A stretch of DNA of 64,000 bases from contig NZ_CP108394.1 of assembly GCF_041435215.1 (NCBI RefSeq), positions 10,478,001 to 10,542,000 of the forward strand, written 5' to 3'. Shown here piece by piece: positions 50,148 to 56,217 of this stretch. The notes under the pieces are model-generated. The model saw only the letters and a program-made list of their open reading frames with translations. It was not told the origin of the DNA and did no database searches. Origin of the DNA: Streptomyces sp. NBC_01314 (lineage in GTDB: Bacteria; Actinomycetota; Actinomycetes; Streptomycetales; Streptomycetaceae). The first letter of the stretch is position 1. The number at the start of each line of letters is the position of its first letter. The position numbers and the translations under genes are program-made.

Positions 50148-51065
50148 CTACGGGCGCAGGAGCAACTTGCCGCGCGCACGGCCGGACTCGCTCAGCTCGT
50201 GTGCCTTGGCGGCGTCGGCGAGCGGGAAGCTCTGGTCGACGCGCACACGCAGTTGGCCGTCGGAGGCGAGGCGGGCGTACTCGGTGAGCTCGGGCCCGAA
50301 CCGTCGGTTGTCGCCGGAGAAGGTGATGCCCAGCTCGAAGGCCCGGGGGTCGGAGATGGTGACGATGCGGTCGGTGGTGCCGCCGCGCAGCTCCACGGAG
50401 ACATCCAGCGCGTCGATGCCGGCGACGTCGTAGACGGCGTCGATGCCCTGCGGGGCAACGGCGCGGACCCGGTCGGCGAGGCCGTCGCCGTACACCACGG
50501 GGATCGCGCCGAGAGAGCGCAGGTAGTCGTGGTTGGCCTCGGACGCCGTACCGATCACGGTGACACCGCGGGCCACGGCGAGCTGAACGCCGACGGAGCC
50601 GACCACGCTCGCGGCTCCGTGGATCAGCAGCGTCTCGTCCTGGCCCACCGCGAGCGCACCCAGCGCACGGTCGGAGGTCTCGACGGCCACGGGCAGCGCG
50701 GCGGCCGTCTCCCAGTCGAGGCCGGCCGGCTTGAGCGCGAAGTCCGAGGCCAAGGCGTACTCGGCATAGGCGCCGGTCTCGGTCCAGCCCATCACCTCGT
50801 CCCCGACCGAGACACCGGTGACGCCCTCCCCCAGCTCGTCGACGATGCCGGCCGCTTCCATACCGGGAACGGCGGGGAAGGATACGGGGCCCATCATCTC
50901 CTGGACCCAGCCGTGGCGAATCTTGAAGTCGATGGGGTTGACGGCGGCGGCCACGATCCTTATCCGCACCTGCCCGGGGCCGGCATGCGGCTCCGTCACC
51001 TCCGCCTGCCGAAGAACCTCCGGACCGCCGTACTCCTCGTACGAGATCGCCTTCACGCCTGTCAC
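50148..51065 (-). CDS. NADP-dependent quinone oxidoreductase-like MDR enzyme
   Basis: A 305-residue medium-chain dehydrogenase/reductase without zinc-binding cysteines. GroES-like N-terminal domain (GPGQVRIRIVAAAVNPIDFK), then the nucleotide fold with GAASVVGSVGVQLAVARG (about residue 151) and the C-terminal RARGKLLL. Members reduce quinones or enones with NADPH. Divergent from the LuxR-type gene at 51237, so that regulator may control it. Confidence 0.88.
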   Translation of the reverse strand: MTGVKAISYEEYGGPEVLRQAEVTEPHAGPGQVRIRIVAAAVNPIDFKIRHGWVQEMMGPVSFPAVPGMEAAGIVDELGEGVTGVSVGDEVMGWTETGAYAEYALASDFALKPAGLDWETAAALPVAVETSDRALGALAVGQDETLLIHGAASVVGSVGVQLAVARGVTVIGTASEANHDYLRSLGAIPVVYGDGLADRVRAVAPQGIDAVYDVAGIDALDVSVELRGGTTDRIVTISDPRAFELGITFSGDNRRFGPELTEYARLASDGQLRVRVDQSFPLADAAKAHELSESGRARGKLLLRP

Positions 51066-51236
51066 TTCCCGTCATATGTATGCATCTGTATGCATCAGGC
51101 CGCCGTGACGGCGGCCTGTCGTGGACAACACCTCCAGCCTCCGGCTGCGCGGCTCGGCTGCCGCTGTCCTTTCGGACGGTTCGGACTAGCCGAAAGGACG
51201 ATCCGGCGGGAGAGCCGACTGCTTACGCTGGCAGAC
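51066..51236. promoter_or_regulatory. Divergent promoter region, oxidoreductase / LuxR-type regulator
   Basis: 171 bp with a lower-GC patch including two TATGTATGCATCTGTATGCA-like direct repeats (TGTATGCATC at 51076-51085 and 51086-51095), and TTCGGAC at 51175-51187 nearby. TATGCAT-containing repeats before the minus-strand gene are operator candidates. Confidence 0.45.
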
Positions 51237-52520
51237 ATGAACCTGATGGCCGCAGTCCAGCTGATCCAGGCGCCGCTGTCCGAGAACCTGTCGCGCCTGT
51301 CCGCCGCGCTGGCGGAGGCCATTCCGCACCGGGCGATCGCCCAGCTGTCCGGCAACTGCGCGTACTCGCCGTATCTGACTCACGGTGAGCCCTCCGGCCG
51401 GCCCCACTCCGTCGCCACCGCCGCCGACCTGGCCGCGCTGCGGCCGCTGTTGCCGGCGAGGGGAAACTGGCAGGGGCGGGCACGGATGGCGGGCGTCGAT
51501 GTGCCCGTGCTGGCCCTGACCAGCGATATCACCGAGCAGGGCGCGCTGCTGGTCGTCATACGGACCGAGGACACCCCTGTACCGGAGGAGCACCTGACGC
51601 CCGCCCAGCTGATGTGGGACCTGGTGACCGCGCACCGGGAAGGTCTGCGGTCCGAGGCGCTCCCCGGGTCGCTGGCCGCGTCGCGAGCCGCGGCAGCGGC
51701 ACGGGCCGCGGCCATCGCCGAACTCGGCGACGCACACGGGGCCGCGCTGACCGCCCTGCTCGGCGTCCTGCGCGACCGCGACCTGGACGACAGCAATGCC
51801 CGTACGCGCGCCGTAGACCTCGCCGTCTCCGCCCACGCCGAACTGCGTTCCCGGGCCGAACTCGACCAGTCGCTGGCGGAGGAGCGGGCCGGGGACGCCT
51901 TCGAGCGGCTCGCCGTGTCGCTGCGCCGCATCCTGCACACCCGCGGCGTACGGCTGGAGCTGAGCCCGCCCGGCGCGAAGGAAGGCGCGGACCGGCAACT
52001 GCCCACCGATGTCACCCACACGGCGCTGGCCGTCGTCCGGGCCACCGTGCACGCGTCACTGGAGGACCAGGTCCACGGTCCGGACGATGACGCGGAGCAC
52101 CGCATCCACGTCGGCTGGAAGGTCGGTACGGACGAACTGCGCGCCACCGTTCGGGACAACGGGCCCGGGACTCTGTCCCGCAGCGCCCTCGACGCCCGCC
52201 GCGTCACCGAGCGACTGGCGCCGCTCGGCGGGCGGCTCGACTTGGACGCGGTGCCCGGTTGGGGCACGACGGTGACTCTCGAGATCCCTCTCGCATCGTC
52301 CAACACACCCCGCCAGGATCCGCTGACCGCGCTCGGCGGACGGGAGCTGGAGGTACTGGGACAGCTGGCCCGCGGTCGACGCAACCGGGACATCGCGCAG
52401 GATCTGCGCATCAGCGAGTCGACGGTGAAGTTCCACGTCGCGAAGGTCCTCGGCAAGCTTGGGGTCAGCTCCCGCGGGGAGGCGGCCGCCCTCGCCCACG
52501 AATGGGGCGCGGGCGCCTAG
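51237..52520 (+). CDS. LuxR-type regulator with HATPase-like module
   Basis: A 427-residue protein. The first 130 residues resemble a small sensory domain, a coiled, Ala-rich helix follows (residues 140-240), then a degenerate histidine-kinase ATPase module (TALAVVRATVHASLE, RATVRDNGPGTL, LDAVPGWGTTVTLEIPL) and finally a LuxR helix-turn-helix (LGGRELEVLGQLARG, IAQDLRISESTVKFHVAKVL). The N-box Asn is replaced and no phospho-His/Asp motif is present, so the ATPase part may be only a binding module. Start ATG 51237. The stop TAG lies exactly at the target site of the adjacent IS630. Confidence 0.82.
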   Translation: MNLMAAVQLIQAPLSENLSRLSAALAEAIPHRAIAQLSGNCAYSPYLTHGEPSGRPHSVATAADLAALRPLLPARGNWQGRARMAGVDVPVLALTSDITEQGALLVVIRTEDTPVPEEHLTPAQLMWDLVTAHREGLRSEALPGSLAASRAAAAARAAAIAELGDAHGAALTALLGVLRDRDLDDSNARTRAVDLAVSAHAELRSRAELDQSLAEERAGDAFERLAVSLRRILHTRGVRLELSPPGAKEGADRQLPTDVTHTALAVVRATVHASLEDQVHGPDDDAEHRIHVGWKVGTDELRATVRDNGPGTLSRSALDARRVTERLAPLGGRLDLDAVPGWGTTVTLEIPLASSNTPRQDPLTALGGRELEVLGQLARGRRNRDIAQDLRISESTVKFHVAKVLGKLGVSSRGEAAALAHEWGAGA

Positions 52521-52717
52521 TGTCCTGAGTCTTTGATTCGGTTCAGATATCCGGCGAGGCGTTCGAAGATCTCGTCGGCGGTCTTCGTCCAGACGAAAGG
52601 TCGGGGATCTTCGTTCCAGGTGGCGATCCAGGAGCGGATGTCTTTCTCCAGGGCCTGCACGTTCTTGTGGACGCCGCGCCGTATCTGCTTGTCCGTCAGC
52701 AGGCCGAACCAGCGCTC
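52517..52717 (-). CDS. IS630 transposase, 3' exon
   Basis: Encodes the last 66 residues: ERWFGLLTDKQIRRGVHKNV, then LEKDIRSWIATWNEDPRPFV and AGYLNRIKDSGH. ERWF with the following Leu/Arg-rich helix is the C-terminal end of IS630 transposases including the last acidic residue of the DDE triad (Glu of the WLNQVERWF block). Separated from the 5' part (55274-56164) by the group II intron; splicing would rejoin the frames without loss of a codon. Stop is TAG, whose complement shares bases with the stop of the LuxR-type gene. Confidence 0.85.
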   Translation of the reverse strand, partial: ERWFGLLTDKQIRRGVHKNVQALEKDIRSWIATWNEDPRPFVWTKTADEIFERLAGYLNRIKDSGH

Positions 52718-55273
52718 GTCGGGTAGGACCGCTGCATTGCTGCAGCGGTCCCCCCTCAGAACCGGCCGTGCCCGATTTCCAGGCAACCGGCTCAAGCAAG
52801 CTCTATGGCTCGCGGGCTGGTCAGAAGTGCTGGCGACTTGCCGATGCCGGTGGTCAGCCGACGGTGGCAGTGGGTGTGGATCAGACGTGGGGCGGCGGAT
52901 TTGTCCGGCTTGCCGTTGCCCGCATCAGCGATGATCGCGTGTTTCCGGATCGCCGTGCGGGTGACCTTGAGCCACTGTTCCCACTGGTCGGGAGTTTGCG
53001 GCTCGTGGTCGGCGTGCAGCAACAGCCCTCCGCAGACTGGACATCGGCCGTCCTGCTTCTGCAATAGATGCAGGGTGCCTTTGCCCAGCGGGAGTTTGCC
53101 GCGGCGACGCCGCTTGGCCCAGAAGTCGACCAGGGTGGGATCGTCGGTCGACGCCGTTCCTGGCACCATCCGGTGCCGGACGATCGGCGTCCAGGCGAAC
53201 TTGTAGAGGTAGAAACCGCTGGTGCGGTCCCCGAACACCCACCTGTCATACCTGAACGGGTTGAACATGCCGAAGTACCGGTCGGTCACCCAGCGCTTCG
53301 ACTTGTTCGCGTGAGAGAACTTGGCCCACTTGTAGACCAGCCTCCACACGTAGGCGTCCAGCGAGTTGAACGCCCGCTTGGACACCCCGATCCGGTAGTA
53401 GGCGGCCCAGCCCTTGATGATCGGGTTGAGCTTGGCGATCACCGCGTCGGCGTTGGCCCCTCGCAGGGCCAGCATCTCGGCGGCGAGCCGTTCCCGGATC
53501 CGCCACAGGGCCGCGTTGCTCGGCTTGGTCAGCAACTTGCCGCGATAGCGTCGGATGTTGAACCCCAGGAAGTCGCAGCCCTCATCGAGGTGGACAACGC
53601 GCGTCTTGTCCTCGTTGAAAGCCAGTCCCCGGGGCGCGAGCCACGCGGCGAGCCGTGCCTTGACCTCCTCGGCTTGTTCCTGCGAGTGGCACAGGGCGAG
53701 GAGGTCGTCGGCGTAGACGACCAGAACCGGTGAGTCACGCGCCAAAATCGCGGCATCGCTGCCGAGAGTCTGGTAGCGGACTCCAGCGGCCTTTCCCATT
53801 CCATGCAAAGCGATATTCAACAACGCGGGACTGATCACCCCGCCCTGAGGAGTTCCTTCCAACGTGGGGGCGAACCAACCTTTCTCGACCACGCCCGCCT
53901 TCAGCCATCCGGCGATCATTCCCCTTCCGGGAAACGAACCCAGCGACGTGAGCAGATTATCGTGGTCGATCCGGTCGAATGCCGCTTTCAAGTCGGCGTC
54001 GAGCACCCACAGGCGCTTGGCGGTCTTGCCGCACGCCGTCGTGTGGATGGCCACAATCGCGTCATGACAGCCACGGCCGGGACGGAAGCCGTAGACCTTC
54101 GGTTCCAGCCGTGCCTCCCACTCGGGCTCCAGCGCATTCAGTGCCAGAGCTTGGAGGCATCTGTCAGCGATCACGGGAATTCCGAGCGGGCGCTGTTTTC
54201 CATTCGCCTTGGCGATATACACCCGCTTGACGGGCTTGGGTTTCCACGGGGCCGCGCCATGCTGGACCCAGTCGGCCAGCTCGGCCTTTTCCTGGGGCGG
54301 CAGGACGACTTTCCCGTCAACCCCCGCCGTCTTGCGGCCAGCGTTGACCTCCGTGACCCGCCGCACACTCACGAGTGCGTTGGCGCGGGAGCGGAGCATC
54401 AGCTTCTGCAGATTCCTGACCTTGGCCAGGTCTCCTGCCTGCGATGCCGTGAAGATGCGCTGCCGCAGACGCCGTACGTCGTCCTCGACCCTCCGCCAGT
54501 CGATCGACGGCCAGTCGGTGATCTCGCCCTCCGGTCCGTTCGCTATGCCGACGGCGGTCGCTGCGGCTTGCGCCGTCCCGGCCGCGTGTGTCGTCATGAC
54601 GTCCAACTTTTCCTTCGGTTCCGGTGTCTTCGGTCTTCGTGCCTTCACAAGCTCACCAGACCCACGTCAGCACCCTTTCAGGTCGGGGTATCGGCCCCTA
54701 TCCGGCCAGTTATGCGGGAACCGCCGACGGAGGTGTCGGCATGTGGTTCCCGGTTTCCTGCTGCCTTTCGGCCACCGGCATTCGCTTGCTGGGTCTTCCT
54801 GCGCCCGCTGGAGATTTGGGCCTTACTTGCGGTTGGCTTACCAGGCCAGAAACTTATTGCCTGGACTCCATCGGGGTTGTCACGTTCCGCATGAGAGAGG
54901 TGCTGCCGGGGAGGGTGCCCTCTGCACCCCGGGGACGGCGGTGCACTCCCGACCGGTCAGATATCTCCGGTCGGCGCCTGCCACTTTTCAATGGCCAGTC
55001 CCTATCTCCCGCTGAAACAACCCATCGGCGAGAGTGCTCATGACGAGGCATCATCAAGGGTTCATTCGCATTCACCCGTCCGGCATTTCCCGGCCTGTAA
55101 TCCCCGGATGGAACGGGAATCCTTGGACCTTTCCTCAGGCTTCGCACCCCGCGATCACTCGCGACGCACGCTGAGGCGGGAACGAGCCCTGTGCACTGGC
55201 TCGGGTCTACACCTTCGACATCGTCGAACCTCCTTGGTGATTCCCACTCTTCTCAAGCGACTTCGTGTCGCAC
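52718..55273 (-). ncRNA. Group II intron (ribozyme with internal maturase)
   Basis: 2556 bp on the minus strand. The 5' end is GTGCGAC, matching the GUGYG rule, right after the codons for WLNQV; the 3' end is CCCGAC, obeying the AY rule, just before ERWF. Domain V (52793-52759) has the AGC triad, a 34-nt hairpin with a GGAAA loop and a closing GGTTC. Domain VI (52757-52718) is a GC-rich hairpin with an unpaired A in CCTACCC eight bases from the 3' end as branch point. 5' ribozyme domains I-III occupy about 54650-55273. Domain IV holds the maturase gene, whose stop codon touches domain V. Confidence 0.88.
52792..54597 (-). CDS. ltrA: Group II intron reverse transcriptase/maturase with HNH domain
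   Basis: About 601 residues. RT blocks are clear: KQRPLGIPVIADRCLQ, YGFRPGRGCHDAI, VLDADLKAAFDRIDH, EGTPQGGVISPALLNIAL and the catalytic YADD in VLVVYADDLLAL. Maturase domain X has LNPIIKGWAAYYR, and the C-terminus an HNH endonuclease with CPVCGGLLLHADHEP and THCHRR. All catalytic residues are present, so a mobile intron is possible. ATG 54597 has AAGGAAAA upstream; ATG 54648 (51 bases earlier) is an alternative. It promotes splicing and retrohoming of its intron. Confidence 0.9.
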   Translation of the reverse strand: MTTHAAGTAQAAATAVGIANGPEGEITDWPSIDWRRVEDDVRRLRQRIFTASQAGDLAKVRNLQKLMLRSRANALVSVRRVTEVNAGRKTAGVDGKVVLPPQEKAELADWVQHGAAPWKPKPVKRVYIAKANGKQRPLGIPVIADRCLQALALNALEPEWEARLEPKVYGFRPGRGCHDAIVAIHTTACGKTAKRLWVLDADLKAAFDRIDHDNLLTSLGSFPGRGMIAGWLKAGVVEKGWFAPTLEGTPQGGVISPALLNIALHGMGKAAGVRYQTLGSDAAILARDSPVLVVYADDLLALCHSQEQAEEVKARLAAWLAPRGLAFNEDKTRVVHLDEGCDFLGFNIRRYRGKLLTKPSNAALWRIRERLAAEMLALRGANADAVIAKLNPIIKGWAAYYRIGVSKRAFNSLDAYVWRLVYKWAKFSHANKSKRWVTDRYFGMFNPFRYDRWVFGDRTSGFYLYKFAWTPIVRHRMVPGTASTDDPTLVDFWAKRRRRGKLPLGKGTLHLLQKQDGRCPVCGGLLLHADHEPQTPDQWEQWLKVTRTAIRKHAIIADAGNGKPDKSAAPRLIHTHCHRRLTTGIGKSPALLTSPRAIELA

Positions 55274-56164
55274 GACCTGGTTCAACCAGGAGGCGCTGGT
55301 CGGCGTGAAGTGCATATGGAACCGGGGGTGGGCCAGCAGCCACTTCTGGATCGCGGGGGTCTTGCGAGTGGCGTAGTTGTCGCAGATCAGGTGGACATCG
55401 AGGTGCTCGGGCACCTCCTTGTCGAGCTTGGCCAGGAACTTCTTGAACTCCACCGCGCGGTGCCGGCGGTGGATGGAGGAGATGACCTCGCCGGTCGCAG
55501 CGTTCAGCGCGGCGAACAGGGCCGTCACCCCACCGCGCACATAGTCGTGGGTGCGGCGCTCGGGCATGCCGGGCATCATCGGCAGTACCGGCGCGGACCG
55601 GTCCAGCGCCTGGATCTGCGACTTCTCGTCCACGCACAGCACGATCGCCCGCTCCGGCGGGTCCAGGTACAGACCGACGACGTCGCGGACCTTCTCGATG
55701 AACTGCGGGTCCTTGGACAGCTTGAAGGTGTCCACCAGGTGCGGCTTGAGGCCGAAGGTCCGCCAGATCCTGGAGACCGTGGACTGCGACAAGCCGCTGG
55801 CCTCGGCCATCTCCCGCGTCGACCAGTGCGTGGCGTTCTTCGGGGTGGACTCCAGCGTGCGCACCACGACCTCCTCGACCTTCTCGTCGCTCACCGTGCG
55901 CGGCGGCCCTGGCCGCGGCTCGTCCGACAGGCCCTGAAGCCGATCGGACGCGAACCGCTTGCGCCACTTGGCCACCGTCACCGGGTGCACCCCAAGCTCC
56001 GTACCCACGACGGTATTTGAGCCACCCTGGGCGCAGGCCGGAACGATCCGGCACCGCAACGCCAAAGCCTGCGACGACGTCGCCCGCCGCGACCAGCGCA
56101 GCAACGTATCCCGCTCGTCGTCTGTCAGGACCACCTCGACCGTCGGCCGACCCATACGCGCCAT
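55274..56164 (-). CDS. IS630 transposase, 5' exon
   Basis: Encodes 297 residues: an N-terminal helix-turn-helix (GTELGVHPVTVAKWRKRFA), a second DNA-binding part (MAEASGLSQSTVSRIWRTFG), then the RNase-H-like domain with the first catalytic Asp in LCVDEKSQIQAL and the second in LICDNYATRKTPA. Ends WLNQV at the intron boundary. Unspliced, translation would run into the intron for only five codons (VRHEVA, then stop), removing the last third of the catalytic triad. Needs splicing to give an active enzyme. Confidence 0.9.
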
Positions 56165-56217
56165 GAGCCCAGCCTACTTCTTCAGTGAATCAAAGACTCA
56201 GGACACTAGGGGCCGTC

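Follow-up and report, generated by a model that had tools for sequence, protein, structure and literature searches.

The window (by which we mean the whole stretch of 64,000 nucleotides that was analysed) contains an intact IS630 element that harbours a group II intron, an assignment that our analysis confirms. On the basis of sequence comparison, we consider it highly probable that this is a recently active intron, which retrohomes by EBS pairing into the SWxNxxE codons of IS630 transposase genes, and that the complete transposase would be obtained only from spliced mRNA. The features concerned are the following.

52520..56206, minus strand: IS630-family element with the intron aboard (3,687 bp; 20-bp perfect terminal inverted repeats GTGTCCTGAGTCTTTGATTC)
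56207..56208, no strand: TA target duplication, 5' side (target CTAG)
52518..52519, no strand: TA target duplication, 3' side (gives the TA of the transposase stop TAG)
55274..56164, minus strand: transposase 5' exon, 297 codons, last residues ...TSASWLNQV
52520..52717, minus strand: transposase 3' exon, 66 codons (ERWFGLL...), the first of which, GAG, encodes the predicted catalytic Glu
52718..55273, minus strand: group II intron, 2,556 nt, GTGCG...CCCGAC
52792..54648, minus strand: intron-encoded reverse transcriptase/maturase, 618 aa counted from the first GTG (ATG at 54597)
52718..52795, minus strand: domains V and VI (RF00029 match), with a predicted branch-point A at 52724 (from the fold)

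The intron and its host element

The intron begins with GTGCG and ends with CTACCCGAC, in keeping with GUGYG at the 5' end and AY at the 3' end. RF00029 (D5-D6), the sole Rfam family to match the window at gathering thresholds, covers 52718-52795 on the minus strand with 46.8 bits (gathering 40, E 4.7e-06), and in the D6 fold a single bulged A lies 7 nt before the intron 3' end. The maturase stop TGA (52794-52792) is located within the first four bases of this match. An earlier note on this DNA had given the coordinates, the length of 2,556, the terminal bases and the 363-codon frame of the joined exons, all of them correct to the base. Its placement of a group II intron in an IS630 transposase gene is borne out by RF00029, the maturase domains and the complete IS ends, its domain V and branch-point A by the score and fold just given, and its overlap of the maturase stop with the start of domain V by the position of the TGA; the covariance-model check that it had suggested puts RF00029 above the gathering threshold. 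The target Glu codon, the six copies and the wider family described below were absent from that note. Since there are six full copies in the genome, and 29 of 30 IS relatives are continuous at the join, the intron is not a chance call.

In the maturase, Pfam recognizes RVT_N, RVT_1 and GIIM domains, and the YADD box cited in the earlier note is present; the score against TIGR04416 (299.9 bits) is just under the cut-off of 300. The C-terminal HNH domain of the same note is best regarded as putative and motif-based: the CPVCGG...HTHCHR stretch is HNH-like by eye, its CPVCGG part aligns with 6me0, and Pfam calls no HNH domain in this protein; any endonuclease activity is presumed. The nearest solved relative (best PDB relative) is 6me0 itself (E 4e-97), which we take to be a TeI4h-type maturase. 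TeI4h is described as IIB1 in the cited part of PMC2882425; for the window intron, group IIB1 / CL1 is a candidate class.

The host IS is complete, with both inverted repeats perfect and TA on either side. Its transposase gene starts at 56164 and is split by the intron at 55274/52717; once 2,556 bp are removed in silico the joined exons form 363 codons, the last of which is followed by a TAG stop whose TA is that of the target and whose G is the adjoining flanking base. With the 5' exon frame alone, the IS630 transposase profile NF033545 scores 225.8 bits (cut-off 100) and its match ends at profile position 265 of 299; DDE_3 scores 47 bits on the host transposase. If the message is not spliced, the frame runs six codons beyond SWLNQV into the intron and stops, giving a protein of 303 aa that lacks the Glu, which strongly implies, in line with the earlier note, that a complete transposase would require splicing. 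As a side observation, the IS insertion falls on the TAG stop of a plus-strand frame, 50199-52520 (window 52515-52520), whose C-terminal end is LuxR-type as judged by eye; the CTAG target provides the TAG stop to both this frame and the transposase.

Copies and empty sites

The genome contains six full copies of the intron and two diverged relatives (74%; 66% in part). Five of the six reside in the same IS at five different places, each at a TA within CTAG; all five composite copies carry the TA duplication and the inverted repeats, as is typical of the IS630 family, and in all five the exons are intact (363 codons). The sixth copy (L013) interrupts an unrelated IS630 gene, likewise at SWLNQV/E (here and below the slash marks the join). 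Its intron differs from that of the window at 1 of 2,556 bases, and the host proteins are identical at 26 of 96 aligned residues. The L013 host matches NF033545 only at profile positions 193-265, inside a 531-codon open frame, and is read as 5'-truncated because only the C-terminal part of a transposase is recognized. No intron-free copy of the window IS was found in this genome. A search of the genome for free targets gave 59 matches to the motif pattern versus 27 for a control pattern; the four intron-free matches with 0-1 mismatch (L217, L221, L222, L224) are not IS630-like in appearance. The other IS630-like genes of the genome read SWLAEVE (L022) and SWLNIAE (L023, L024).

Thirty relatives of the IS, taken from the best matches (L074, L079-L107), were compared with the joined exons. 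All except L085, which does not extend to the predicted join, read continuously across it with no intron. The join position foreseen in the earlier note holds in these 29 relatives, whereas the empty copy identical to the joined exons for which it had proposed a search was not encountered among the IS relatives searched, the best being ~88-89% identical.

Introns at least 89% identical to that of the window and with a readable end occupy, among the matches listed, ten further sites, all at the same codon boundary (one of the searches scored two candidates per genome). These are in S. dysideae, Streptomyces sp. NRRL WC-3618, S. diastatochromogenes, S. luteolifulvus, Streptomyces sp. ISL-100 (two contig ends, counted as a single site), genome G090 (two sites), genomes G242 and G127 (one each), and a plasmid of Streptomyces sp. 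NBC_01320 (L075), where the intron is interrupted by a second one. The G242 and G127 sites are 5' fragments with 439 and 36 nt matched, respectively; matches of at least 89% confined to D5, in G361 (45 nt) and G308 (50 nt), are outside the ten. The next relative among the matches listed, at 82% (L210, also in G127), is in another gene, at RLDWKYCL/. Two structural peculiarities were noticed in this set: the S. dysideae intron (L035) has 533 extra bases near its 3' end with respect to the window copy, and the IS630-homing intron of L075 is broken in its RT gene, at EGTPQGG, by the start of another intron (GTGCGACGCGAGG), forming a twintron-like nest.

Movement of the intron and of the IS

Among the five IS copies there are 5 variable exon sites in 1,131 bp versus 0 intron substitutions; the L014 intron is without one G of a run in the linker between domains V and VI. 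If substitutions were evenly spread, the chance of finding all five in the exons would be ~0.003 (0.307^5), or ~0.009 when two changes in one codon are counted as one event. This indicates either an intron that postdates the divergence of the IS copies or gene conversion; variation in the exons with no substitution in the intron speaks rather for the invasion or conversion of separate IS copies. The Leu codon that precedes the join (window 55283-55285) is TTG in the copies L009 and L010 and also in L013, with its unrelated host, but CTC in L011, L012 and L014; taken together with exon site -92, it resembles a short conversion tract adjoining the intron.

We consider the chances about even that some of the five IS copies transposed with the intron aboard, splicing supplying the transposase, and that both levels of mobility act. 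L012 and L014, which lie at two different places, have identical exons, and no empty copy able to supply the transposase was found in the genome. However, the low divergence would equally permit homing or gene conversion into each copy, and all four combinations occur at exon sites -724 and -92, a sign of recombination or recurrent change. Of the two-level mobility claimed in the earlier note, movement of the intron apart from the IS stands, given the second, unrelated host, while movement of the IS with the intron aboard is only plausible. Less probable in our judgment, and on the whole unlikely, is that the intron mainly shuts the IS off, moving itself with negligible ligation of the exons, by analogy with RmInt1, for which splicing of <1% of exons is given in the cited part of PMC4238363; the intact exons of all five copies fit a working transposase, but they fit a recent insertion too. 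An effect of the intron on the rate of IS transposition is presumed.

That the intron does not home at all, and that every copy derives from transposition of the composite IS with a passively carried intron, would account for the five composite copies with their TA duplications, five places and intact 363-codon exons, and for the lack of an intron-free copy among the sequences of this genome, but the sixth copy in an unrelated, only C-terminally recognized IS630 gene, identical introns in unlike hosts in three other genomes, and exons that differ more than introns already contradict it as a sole route, and we deem it most improbable. In those three genomes the intron is identical at 2558/2558 positions with hosts at 75% (G090), at 2525/2525 positions with hosts at 46-60% (G300), and at 2552/2552 positions with hosts at 57% (G289). 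Because the same or nearly the same intron is present in unlike hosts in four genomes, the intron appears to have moved independently of the IS, an argument that is purely comparative.

The target site

Retrohoming into a conserved motif, the reading that we prefer, calls attention to the position of the join in the host proteins. The exon motif at the site is SSW or ASW, followed by L/M/I, N, Q/R, V/I, and then E. The residue after the join is a Glu, 35 residues past the second Asp (ICDNYA); we take this Glu to be the third catalytic residue of the IS630 D,D,E triad, and the Asp is assigned likewise. In all ten hosts run against NCBIfam, namely L013 and those of the ten further sites other than L038, as in the window host, the NF033545 match ends at position 265 of 299. 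The intron site is thus predicted to lie directly before the codon of the third catalytic Glu of IS630 transposases. In a comparison of 34 relatives NQVERWF ranks 1 of 357 seven-residue windows for conservation, with ties possible; other windows, mostly wider, rank lower (WLNQVE 22/358, 14 residues 27/350, 10 residues 39/354).

EBS/IBS pairing

Two segments of the intron are predicted to recognize the 5' exon.

54958..54963, minus strand: TATCTG, predicted EBS1, located in the loop of a hairpin; its partner is the 5' exon end CAGGTC
55036..55040, minus strand: TGAGC, predicted EBS2; its partner in the CTC copies is the 5' exon sequence GCTCA

The search was carried out on the aligned first 720 nt of the introns, with no place assumed, and used 39 of the 48 aligned introns (L144, L146, L150, L167, L171, L197, L202, L203 and L208, which are fragments, poorly aligned or redundant, were left out). 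Pairing with the last 6 exon bases singles out one alignment column, and pairing with bases -14 to -9 another. With 15 introns, one per target, the true EBS1 and EBS2 pairings score 198 and 141, and when exons are shuffled among introns 0 of 300 shuffles reach the true scores at any column (maxima 127 and 105). This set of representatives was picked after the pairings had been seen; a second set yields 176 and 144 versus shuffle maxima of 116 and 109. Across the family the EBS1 and EBS2 loops change along with the target.

In the window copy the EBS1 pairing includes a single G-U pair and fails at the final base of IBS1, TATCTG being better suited to CAGAT than to CAGGT; its register was set by hand from the relatives L035 and L036, because the best register found by the script for this copy was another one (nt 316). 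EBS2 is mismatched with the window copy's own TTG codon, and IBS2 is imperfect. Two other candidates, GACCTG (intron nt 590) and CCAACC (nt 438), match the exon, yet they hardly vary among introns directed to other targets and were rejected for that reason.

The wider family and its targets

When 392 genomes of the genus were scanned for the intron 5' end pattern, 80 matches were obtained in 47 genomes versus 11 for the reversed pattern, a figure which indicates that chance matches exist. In silico splicing is possible at 38 of the 73 sites outside the window's own genome; the remaining ones have no recognizable 3' end (fragments, contig ends, interrupted copies, chance matches) and were not counted as targets. 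Mobile-element genes account for 21 of the 38 spliceable sites, cellular genes or start-codon sites for 8, and 9 are without a family (L146, L159, L165, L182, L183, L192, L193, L196, L207). Family models were run on representatives of the targets only; the others were placed through a shared peptide motif, and L201, whose N-terminus is IS5-like, by eye. Host family scores often fall short of the curated cut-off, since the input was limited to the 5' exon. The recurrent targets are listed below.

IS4: LYHERW/E
IS5: YKQRNVVERCFNRLK/Q
IS1380: LRPGNAGS/NTAADH, a conserved motif, not claimed to be catalytic
DDE_Tnp_4: GRMHDQ/T
IS21: QVDWG/DEG
ISAzo13: SVDAKKKE/KVG, in the window's own genome
TnpB: a conserved motif, not claimed to be catalytic
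RT motifs of other group II introns: the FL of FLGF, and PQGG/

The IS4 and IS5 sites presumably correspond to the YREK signature region, and those of IS21 and ISAzo13 to the first Asp. The cellular targets include an SNF2 helicase (L144), an ATP-grasp type protein (L205), and two genes with a methyltransferase-like motif I by eye, in which the family search found none (L154, L184); in L152, L168, L176 and L178 the intron either immediately precedes an ATG start codon or interrupts it. The cellular-gene sites imply that targeting is to conserved DNA, and not to transposases only. At the level of the class, a close maturase protein (E up to 1e-150) was present in 11 of 394 genomes, nine of them outside the genus; of the 11 loci examined 4 had a readable site: one at the IS1380 motif, two at QWDWL motifs that are IS21-like by eye, and a fourth of no clear type.

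Other arrangements were seen in passing. The 5' exon CCAACTGAAGYGCTCAGT, or one close to it, recurs in several genomes with no obvious coding frame (L193, L207, L156, L157, L170, L177, L206). In G289 an identical ~1.32 kb IS3-family element is found in two IS4-homing intron copies (L197, L200), inserted at intron nt 867 and about 2449, an IS in an intron in an IS.

These observations invite a broader and decidedly tentative proposal, which may well fail: that an actinomycete intron lineage specializes in the active-site and signature-motif codons of mobile-element enzymes (the Glu of IS630, the YREK region of IS4 and IS5, the first Asp of IS21 and ISAzo13, RT motifs of group II introns), retargeting from one family to another via EBS1/EBS2 change, with splicing controlling many IS families. 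If it were true, many IS families would be under the splicing control of one retroelement lineage.

Relation to known systems

The arrangement of an intron in an IS630 element is not new. RmInt1 is described as a group II intron in an IS630-family transposase gene, whose transposase needs splicing (cited parts of PMC4238363, PMC5894124, PMC4496777); in ISRm2011-2 of Sinorhizobium meliloti its splicing in the cell is <1%, and a braking role has been proposed (cited part of PMC4238363). The window intron likewise interrupts an IS630-family transposase gene. In pSymA of S. meliloti, the sequence ending with the published RmInt1 IBS1 reads ...RLVFIDE, then TWTK; in our reading VFIDE/TWTK would be a catalytic motif, in the region of the first Asp. 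RmInt1 differs from the window intron in being of class D, in having no endonuclease domain, in occupying another gene motif, and in its alphaproteobacterial host.

E.c.I4 of Enterobacteriales, which is reported at specific positions in IS629, IS911, ISEc16 and ISEc31, with copies <1% apart within a strain and sites saturated or nearly so in some genomes (cited part of PMC3522654), is similar in that one intron occupies specific positions in several related IS transposases; it differs in its IS3-like hosts and in the bacteria concerned. The TeI3/TeI4 introns of Thermosynechococcus elongatus are reported to have diverged in target specificity, to insert into IS elements and other introns at conserved sites, and to include identical inner introns inside diverged outer ones (cited part of PMC2882425). 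They are also the source of the solved maturase nearest to that of the window intron; IS200-type and twintron hosts, 28 copies and a thermophilic organism set them apart. In the open-access literature searched we found no earlier description of the present case, nor of a lineage at the IS630 Glu codon or of a single intron family that has spread over motifs in eight or more protein families of mobile elements.

Proposed mechanism and implications

Inteins and homing introns often use a highly conserved stretch of the host gene as an address. We propose that the EBS1 and EBS2 loops of the intron RNA would pair with the S-W-x-N-Q/R-V/I codons in DNA, that the intron would reverse-splice into the paired site, and that its own reverse transcriptase would copy it in. 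Because the motif is common to otherwise very different IS630 genes, one intron could spread across many kinds of IS. The IS would then yield complete transposase from spliced mRNA only, the unspliced message giving a protein that ends before the Glu. Pairing with a conserved motif during retrohoming would explain the position, the spread and the retargeting of the intron. The sequences show the boundaries, the empty sites, the target position, the near-identical introns in unlike hosts and the target-matched EBS changes. The mobility of group II introns needs excised intron RNA; given the recent mobility, and since the exons are intact, we infer that splicing occurs in the cell.

The natural record of homing is unusually complete in this system. 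It offers a clean natural case of a mobile intron addressed to a highly conserved, predicted active-site stretch of its prey, with two kinds of occupied site side by side in one genome. The some fifteen natural target switches with readable EBS/IBS changes would be useful for targetron design in high-GC actinomycetes, and the system would also be useful for measuring how an intron brakes or permits the transposition of an IS.
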